NCBI RefSeq assembly: GCF_035934735.1
Contig: NZ_CP142396.1
Coordinates: 124,001-188,000 of the forward strand
Direction of reading: 5' to 3'
Length of the DNA stretch: 64,000 nucleotides
Source: Sedimentibacter sp. MB31-C6
GTDB taxonomy: Bacteria > Bacillota > Clostridia > Tissierellales > Sedimentibacteraceae
Part shown: positions 36,106 to 37,752 of the stretch, piece by piece
How positions within the stretch are numbered: the first letter of the stretch is position 1
Layout of the letters: the number at the start of each line of letters is the position of its first letter
Translations under genes and position numbers: made by a program
Notes under the pieces: generated by a model
The model's input: the letters and a program-made list of their open reading frames with translations, nothing else
Told to the model about the DNA's origin: nothing
Database searches by the model: none

Positions 36106-36135
36106 AAAAAAAAAAGGGTGTCATTATGACATCCC
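36106..36135 (-). terminator. Intrinsic terminator of spoIVA
   Basis: A hairpin of GGGATGTCAT with ATGACACCC (one bulged base, 36116-36135) is followed on the minus strand by ten T. It starts 11 bp after the spoIVA stop. Confidence 0.85.
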
Positions 36136-36145
36136 AATTTTTCCC

Positions 36146-37624
36146 TTAAATTATTAAGAATATTATACTTCCTGAACCGTCATTTACAATTTTTTCAATA
36201 GTCTTTTTAAGTTTTTTTCTTGCATTTTCTGGCATAGCAGTTAATTTAGATTCAAGCTGTTCCTCAACTAAGCTATATAAAGTTTTGCCAAATATTTCAG
36301 CATCCCAAATACATTGAGGATTATCTTTACTTTGCTCTATAAGATGATTCATTAAATCTTCACTTTGAATCTTACTTCCTATAACAGGTGATACTTCTGT
36401 ATTTAAACTTGCATTAAAGATATGCAGAGACGGTGCCTGTGCTTTAATTTTAATACCATATCTGCTACCTTCTTTAAACACTTCTGGTTTATCAATTATC
36501 ATGTCAGAAATACCAGGTGTTACATAACCGTATCCTTTATTTCTTGCATCATTAATAGCATCTTCTACTCTTCTATATTCATCTTTTGCGCTTGCTAAAT
36601 CACCAATAAGTTTCAATATTTGATGCTCTCCAGTAATTTCCTCACCAGATAATTCACTTATAACTTTATAATAATAAGAATCATCTATATCAATTCTCAT
36701 ATTGATACTACCTTTGCCTAACTCTATATCTTTTACATAGAAATCTTCCACATAATCATTATCATCAGAAAAGATTTTCGTAGCATCAAAATCGCTAATC
36801 TTATAGCAACTATCAAAATCTTCTTTTAAAACTTGAATTAAGTCATGTTTTAATGTATAGTCATAAGTCAACCCATCAAACCACTTAGGCAAATCGACAT
36901 TAATTTCTTTTATTGGAAATTCATAAAGCACATCTTCAAGTACATTTTCTATATCTTCAGTTTTTAAATTTAAGCAGTCCACAATTTGTACGGGAGCTTC
37001 ATATTTTTCATTTAATTGTGAAGCCAATGCAACGGTATTTTCGTTTTGCGGCTGTGTAGTATTTAAAATAATTACAAATGGTTTGTTTATTTCTTTAAGC
37101 TCTTTTACCACTCTTTCTTCAGCTGTAATATAGTTGTCTCTATTTAAGTCCGTTATACTTCCATCTGTCGTAACTAATACTCCTATTGTTGAATGTTCTT
37201 TTATAACTTTTCTTGTTCCAATTTCTGCTGCTTCAGCAAATGGTATAGGAGCCTCATTCCAAGGAGTGCTTACAAGTCTAGGAATTTCACCCTCCATATT
37301 TCCAATTGCACCTGGTATCATATAACCTACACAATCAATAAGTCTTAAATTTGCATTTATATTATCTTTAAATGTTACTTTTACTGCCTCACCAGGAACA
37401 AATTTAGGTTCCGTAGTCGTAACAGTTTTGCCTGTACCGCTTTGAGGCATTTCATCTTTAGCTCTTTCCCTTATGTACTCATCCTCAATATTTGGAAGCA
37501 TTACATTTTCAGAAAATTTTCTAATAAATGTTGACTTACCTGTTCTAACTGGACCAACAATTCCTAAATATATTTCGCCCTTTGTTCTTCTAGCTATATC
37601 TTCATATATATCTAAATTAGTAAT
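36146..37624 (-). CDS. spoIVA: Stage IV sporulation protein A, ATPase of the spore coat basement layer; ATT start
   Basis: 492 aa if started at the ATT at 37624. SpoIVA polymerises on the forespore surface using ATP and anchors coat assembly. The frame upstream of the first ATG (37501) stays open and encodes 41 residues (ITNLDIYEDIARRTKGE..., then the P-loop GPVRTGKST) that the family requires. No ATG, GTG or TTG is in frame before the upstream stop. GGGAGG lies 7 nt before the ATT. Starting at 37501 would delete the Walker A. The total of 492 aa equals the Bacillus subtilis SpoIVA length as I recall it. In the C-terminal part only general family similarity is seen. It has its own terminator. 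Confidence 0.92.
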   Translation of the reverse strand: MTNLDIYEDIARRTKGEIYLGIVGPVRTGKSTFIRKFSENVMLPNIEDEYIRERAKDEMPQSGTGKTVTTTEPKFVPGEAVKVTFKDNINANLRLIDCVGYMIPGAIGNMEGEIPRLVSTPWNEAPIPFAEAAEIGTRKVIKEHSTIGVLVTTDGSITDLNRDNYITAEERVVKELKEINKPFVIILNTTQPQNENTVALASQLNEKYEAPVQIVDCLNLKTEDIENVLEDVLYEFPIKEINVDLPKWFDGLTYDYTLKHDLIQVLKEDFDSCYKISDFDATKIFSDDNDYVEDFYVKDIELGKGSINMRIDIDDSYYYKVISELSGEEITGEHQILKLIGDLASAKDEYRRVEDAINDARNKGYGYVTPGISDMIIDKPEVFKEGSRYGIKIKAQAPSLHIFNASLNTEVSPVIGSKIQSEDLMNHLIEQSKDNPQCIWDAEIFGKTLYSLVEEQLESKLTAMPENARKKLKKTIEKIVNDGSGSIIFLII

Positions 37625-37752
37625 ATTAATCCCTCCCCCTAAAAATATGCACTTTCGTATACAATTAATTTATATGCCTTTAATTCTATCATTATTACTA
37701 AATATATAAAAAAATATATTATAAAACAATCTATCTACAGCAACTTATAGAA

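Follow-up and report, generated by a model that had tools for sequence, protein, structure and literature searches.

The window analysed here is a stretch of 64,000 nucleotides from Sedimentibacter sp. MB31-C6 (contig NZ_CP142396.1, positions 124,001 to 188,000), and all positions below are counted from its first letter. On its minus strand, a reading frame of 492 codons opening with ATT (36146 to 37624) was identified as spoIVA from its translation and from its match to the TIGR02836 (spore_IV_A equivalog) profile, which scored 663.3 bits, above the curated cut-off of 459.9. Residues 3 to 492 of the 492-residue reading align to positions 3 to 492 of the 492 in the profile, and the start is therefore predicted at the ATT at 37622 to 37624, referred to below as codon 0. 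Profile matches place gpsA and der upstream of spoIVA. Just past the spoIVA stop codon, an inverted repeat containing a bulged base, with a T run behind it, was seen by eye at 36106 to 36135 on the minus strand, and this is apparently an intrinsic terminator.

The Walker A motif GPVRTGKST is encoded at 37529 to 37555 (minus strand), upstream of the first in-frame ATG, which is codon 41 (37499 to 37501, minus strand) and would give a product of 451 amino acids lacking the motif. The SpoIVA product has its N-terminal Walker A motif only if translation begins before codon 23. The upstream in-frame stop is a TAA at 37670 to 37672 (minus strand), 16 codons before the ATT, and from this TAA to codon 41 the spoIVA frame of the window contains no ATG, GTG, TTG or CTG. 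Automatic gene calling would probably settle on codon 41, and annotations in the Sedimentibacter family probably contain a shortened SpoIVA. In minus-strand order, the Shine-Dalgarno (SD) sequence AGGGGGAGGG (37640 to 37631) is followed by an ATT (37630 to 37628), an AAT (37627 to 37625) and the ATT of codon 0 (37624 to 37622). The hexamer GGGAGG occupies 37637 to 37632 and ends 7 nt before codon 0, a spacing that belongs to the second ATT and not to the one at 37630 to 37628. The predicted pairing of the SD sequence with the anti-SD is -12.5 kcal/mol, stronger than approximately 93% of 375 comparison sites (median -8.5), each lying upstream of the first ATG in a long ORF and not of a verified start. 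A sequence-only reading of this DNA had described a frame with no ATG, GTG or TTG between the TAA and the P-loop, a GGGAGG 7 nt before an ATT at the family start position, a protein of 492 residues from that ATT, and a Walker A motif left out of the 451-residue ORF that opens at 37501; the minus-strand coordinates and the profile alignment bear out all of this, and CTG is absent as well.

A search of the order, which we take to be Tissierellales, yielded 25 genomes with spoIVA in the family of the window genome, presumably Sedimentibacteraceae (f1): the window genome itself (G000), 22 other members of the genus, and G191 and G192, which each represent a further genus. The start could be read in 24 of the 25, G007 (locus L020) being left out because its contig ends before the start. 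These 24 loci, from three genera and with SpoIVA proteins that diverge from that of the window by up to approximately 31%, start with ATT in 14 cases, ATC in nine and ATA in one, and none starts with ATG. Among them is the cultured isolate S. saalensis DSM 13558 (L034, apparently the same genome as G018/L006), whose SpoIVA is 87% identical to that of the window and whose start codon is ATT. The predicted SD pairing before codon 0 lies between -11.3 and -13.3 kcal/mol in all 24 loci. The sequence-only reading had proposed a genuine AUU start that would limit translation, the start to be checked by aligning its region across relatives, and the conservation of the ATH class (ATT, ATC or ATA) in this alignment supports such a start.

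Outside the family, all 64 spoIVA starts read were canonical (35 GTG, 24 ATG and 5 TTG); spoIVA was matched in 66 such genomes of the order, of which G207 (a fragment) and G246 were left out. A record search gave a further set of 40 non-family loci, some of which may repeat genomes of the order survey, and 39 of these were judged by eye to have a canonical start at the site or within one codon of it. The alignment of L084 begins at residue 150, so that it could not be aligned at the start, and L026 and L041 were left out since their starts lie off the contig.

Upstream of the SD sequence, a predicted -10-like element, GCATATAAAT, lies at 37668 to 37677 on the minus strand and contains the in-frame TAA, and a predicted -35-like element, GTAATAA, lies at 37692 to 37698 on the same strand, with a spacer of 14 nt here and 13 to 14 nt in relatives. 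The motifs were picked by eye from the family loci and then scanned in those same loci, where GCATATAAAT was found in 22 of 24, GGAATAA in 20 of 24, and the pair (GGAATAA or one mismatch, 13 to 14 nt, GCATAT) in 22 of 24. Locus L012 has no -35 match, L112 has no -10 match, and the -10 element of L021 reads GCATATATAT. Judged by consensus, the pair is a putative sigma-E-like promoter.

Several features of the family alignment mark codon 0 as the beginning of the coding sequence. Among the 24 loci, codon 0 varies at its third base only and the variation downstream is mostly third-base as well (codon 3 is an exception, varying at its first base), while codons -1 and -2 vary at the first or second base and never at the third, as a spacer would. 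This wobble-type variation from codon 0 onward argues that coding begins there. Codon -1 cannot itself be the start, since the window has AAT there and L112 has ACT. As ATT, ATC and ATA are all isoleucine codons, codon 0 taken alone is indistinguishable from a translated isoleucine, and upstream stops are needed to exclude that. Such a stop lies in frame 5 codons before codon 0 in L111 (G191) and 6 codons before it in L012 (G009), and the only alternatives between stop and codon 0 in these loci are glycine, glutamate, ATT and GTT codons; there is therefore no canonical upstream start in either. Nine further loci have a stop at codon -10. None of the 24 loci has an NTG in codons 1 to 18, and in the window, L016 and L111 there is no canonical start anywhere from the upstream stop to the conserved N-terminal domain. 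The Walker A residues (23 to 31) are invariant in all 24 loci, and threonine is the second residue in 23 of them. The SpoIVA chain would begin with fMet, and this initiator methionine, standing before threonine, would probably be removed. The use of an ATH start for spoIVA translation is well supported by the compared sequences.

We consider it likely that spoIVA of this family is translated from AUU, AUC or AUA, that the strong SD places the ribosome on this codon, and that the inefficient start holds down SpoIVA synthesis. The unusually strong SD would position the 30S subunit on the near-cognate codon, where the fMet initiator tRNA, with anticodon CAU, would pair with a third-base mismatch; IF3 would disfavour the mismatched pairing and make initiation inefficient, and SpoIVA, a self-polymerising ATPase, would be kept scarce or late in the mother cell, possibly in an IF3-dependent manner. 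The low yield, the IF3 dependence, the regulatory role and the developmental benefit of such a start are what we infer from its form. The coat requires large amounts of SpoIVA, and a weak start sits oddly with this demand unless the mRNA is abundant. A tentative and rather doubtful extension is that spoIVA is wired to IF3 in the manner of infC, so that its synthesis follows the ratio of IF3 to ribosomes in the mother cell and the coat platform is laid only when the stringency of initiation falls late in sporulation; if true, this would be an unreported layer of timing in spore-coat assembly. More generally, an AUH start shared by the whole family on the ATPase that founds the spore coat points to selection on the dosage or timing of SpoIVA at translation initiation.

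Near-cognate starts of this kind have precedents. In E. coli, the AUU start of pcnB limits translation, in a gene and a lineage unrelated to those of spoIVA. The sequence-only reading had named infC as the known case, which is too narrow, since PMC13009471 names the pcnB start together with ccpN and cvfC1, and PMC5472188 that of sigR. The infC gene, which encodes IF3, starts at AUU, AUC or AUA and is autoregulated by IF3 (PMC5472188); it shares with spoIVA a near-cognate AUH codon and a strong SD, but there the feedback acts on the gene's own product, whereas SpoIVA, an ATPase of the spore coat, has no known role in initiation. In Staphylococcus, the starts of ccpN (AUA) and cvfC1 (AUU) are conserved and have an extended SD, and AUU and AUA starts with extended SD in S. 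aureus gave approximately 10% of the AUG level in poor medium and, for ccpN, up to 30% in rich medium (PMC13009471). These genes resemble spoIVA in their conserved AUH start, extended SD and Gram-positive host; they differ in encoding a transcriptional repressor and a small protein, whereas spoIVA is a structural morphogenetic gene in which three AUH codons interchange. The Streptomyces sigR gene starts at GTC and is repressed by IF3, and such repression can be indispensable to a regulatory circuit (PMC5472188). As in spoIVA, the sigR start is non-canonical and mis-annotated, has an extensive ribosome-binding site (AGGAGGTG in sigR) and is conserved in its genus, and it keeps one protein scarce; the codon is GTC rather than ATH, and IF3 repression is demonstrated for sigR, whereas for spoIVA it would be the expectation. 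In C. butyricum and C. sporogenes, AUU starts introduced by engineering are translated (PMC11040787). The natural non-canonical bacterial starts named so far in the literature found amount to a handful (infC, pcnB, ccpN, cvfC1, citZ and sigR), and the titles and abstract openings listed by searches of open-licence PMC literature gave no description of a non-canonical spoIVA start. The same searches turned up no N-terminal peptide, ribosome profile or reporter measurement for this gene. Conserved non-canonical starts are thus already known, and in these searches a spore structural gene among them appears to be new.

The most durable rival reading accepts the AUH start and denies it a regulatory role: the ancestor of the family would have lost AUG, its absence would be compensated by the strong SD, and the codon would have drifted among AUU, AUC and AUA. 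We regard this as unlikely, although several observations fit it. The strong SD is compensatory in kind, and no common hairpin was seen by eye among the 12 leaders that were folded. The family spoIVA tree, which was built without codons 0 to 3, has several weak forks and includes a G192 sequence (L112) that fills 14% of columns, accounts for the start codons with only three changes, all of them among ATT, ATC and ATA; no change to ATG is called for. G is in the minority at 13 fourfold sites within codons 1 to 39 of the 24 loci, with 53 of 312 letters (17%), ranging from 0 of 24 (codons 10 and 15) to 9 of 24 (codons 22 and 24). With so few changes at codon 0 and so little G at nearby sites, the fact that ATG is missing does not carry much statistical weight on its own. 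Against drift, a single base change would restore AUG, the better start, yet it appears in none of the 24 loci over the divergence of three genera, and infC, in which the same pattern is functional in other bacteria, looks alike. The missing G at codon 0 is suggestive of selection against AUG.

Translation could instead begin at another upstream codon, such as a GTG or TTG near the presumed transcription start, with codon 0 read as isoleucine, and the isoleucine-type wobble at codon 0 would suit this. In-frame canonical codons do occur further upstream in nine of the 24 loci (L003 to L007, L010, L011, L014 and L112), but the other 15, including the window, have none, and the stops 5 and 6 codons upstream exclude this reading for L111 and L012. 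The frame upstream of codon 0 is not conserved among species, GGGAGG would become coding sequence, and much of the upstream region precedes the predicted promoter. A canonical upstream start was rejected on the strength of these stops and the unconserved frame, and we consider an upstream start of any kind very improbable.

Just as improbable is that the functional product is the 451-residue protein without Walker A. All 24 family loci have an ATG at codon 41, but in the window no SD match precedes it, and codons 0 to 39 show constraint at the protein level, with an invariant Walker A throughout. In B. subtilis, moreover, a SpoIVA mutant that is impaired in ATP hydrolysis is sporulation-defective (PMC13317604). 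A minor second product from this ATG may accompany full-length SpoIVA.

There is slighter reason still to favour an internal NTG start in codons 19 to 22, just before Walker A, which would shorten the protein by approximately 20 residues and keep the motif. Such a codon is present in 21 of the 24 loci, most commonly as TTG at codon 19, and the predicted SD pairing before it ranges from -2.4 to -11.2 kcal/mol, the strongest being in L017. In each of the 21 loci, however, this pairing is weaker than that at codon 0; the codon varies among species and is absent from the window, L016 and L111, and codons 0 to 18 are under protein-level constraint. Finally, a single T-for-G error of sequencing or assembly at 37622 to 37624 would have turned an ATG into the ATT of the window, but the chance of this is negligible and it was ruled out, since the same codon class is common to all 24 readable loci, including the cultured isolate and the single-contig genomes G021 and G192.

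The initiation machinery was examined for changes that might favour AUH starts. Initiator tRNA genes were sought with the pattern GGGCTNATAACCC, which gave matches in only 13 of 31 genomes, and nothing is said here of the rest. The six genus initiator tRNAs read, three from G000 and one from each of three other genomes, all have the anticodon CAU. No initiator with another anticodon was found among the matches, and the off-anticodon pattern matches (L171, L176, L178 and L179) were not called tRNA genes. An altered initiator tRNA reading AUH as cognate was rejected, the three pattern matches of G000 being CAU initiators. The Sedimentibacter initiator tRNAs read (L181, L186, L188, L177, L180 and L185) are 76 nt long, one D-loop base fewer than in most of the order relatives read (77 nt), and have a T at position 72 by our own count. 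G026 has both the 76-nt length and T72 and G027 has T72 only; neither genome has a spoIVA match. Loss of RsmH or RsmI raises initiation at AUU in E. coli (PMC13317604). Each of the two proteins was found in 15 of 16 genus genomes and in 24 of the 25 genomes searched overall, the misses being G015 for RsmH and G004 (62% complete) for RsmI. G000 has both, and their loss, which would relax discrimination against AUU, was rejected as an explanation.

To gauge how particular the spoIVA start is, a screen was run over 844 kb of G000, made up of the window plus 39 other stretches, giving 697 coding ORFs that passed the filter; the screen is blind to genes whose SD is weak or that have any canonical codon in frame upstream. 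By the script rule, 571 of these ORFs start with ATG, 85 with TTG and 35 with GTG, and six have no such codon in their first half. An SD-preceded ATH codon without a near canonical start gave six raw matches, of which spoIVA, infC and fliO were kept; two of the others were dropped for an ATG 2 or 10 codons on, and one as an antisense-looking ORF by eye. In 400 kb of G021, deliberately chosen to contain the spoIVA stretch, the only one of 323 ORFs to be kept was spoIVA itself, for which the screen picked the ATT two codons before codon 0. The other three of the four raw matches were dropped because of an ATG or TTG two codons on. With three of 697 ORFs in G000 and one of 323 in G021, a genome-wide relaxation of start codons was not seen.

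By eye, all 15 Sedimentibacter infC starts read are ATT (eight) or ATA (seven), and outside the genus eight of ten infC starts were read, all ATT, L089 and L108 being left out of the count because the motif was not found. The alternation of ATT and ATA in infC of the genus reads as the same signature as that of spoIVA. The fliO gene of the window genome (L195:2735-3076, equivalent to G000:C1:842735-843076, minus strand) was compared with the genus loci L229 to L247. In 15 of these 19 loci, ATT, ATC or ATA stands directly before the first conserved lysine or its equivalent, and in the other four an ATT stands one codon earlier. The GGAG before the ATH codon usually overlaps a stop codon, and in L230, L232 and L233 a TAA immediately precedes the ATT. 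Sedimentibacter fliO appears also to start at ATH, although this is less certain, since TTG, CTG or ATG codons abut the SD in several species and the predicted SD strength is ordinary (-8.2 kcal/mol).

The starts of two other sporulation genes were read in the same way. In the family, spoIIID starts with ATG in all 10 loci read and spoIVB with ATG in all nine; outside it, spoIIID starts with TTG or GTG in 29 of 30 loci (L304 to L333) and spoIVB with TTG in 30 of 30 (L274 to L303), the latter calls coming from the script rule and not being checked individually. Loci L334 to L352 also belong to this comparison, and the start of L353 was not read. Since family spoIIID and spoIVB start with ATG, the sporulation starts of the family are not weak in general, and among spoIVA, spoIIID and spoIVB the weak start is particular to spoIVA. 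The contrast with the rest of the order, where GTG or TTG is found on spoIIID, on spoIVB and in many cases on spoIVA, suggests that sporulation genes may commonly be tuned through the strength of their start codons. A 952-codon SpoIVB frame in G192 (953 codons in G191) was dropped; in G192, the one of the two that was checked, SpoIVB reads as a 366-codon ORF. In G000 the spoIVB family exceeds its cut-off twice, at G000:C1:94-1071, close to an end of the large contig, and at G000:C2:3139-4128, on a small contig of 13.7 kb; either the contig ends overlap or there has been a duplication.
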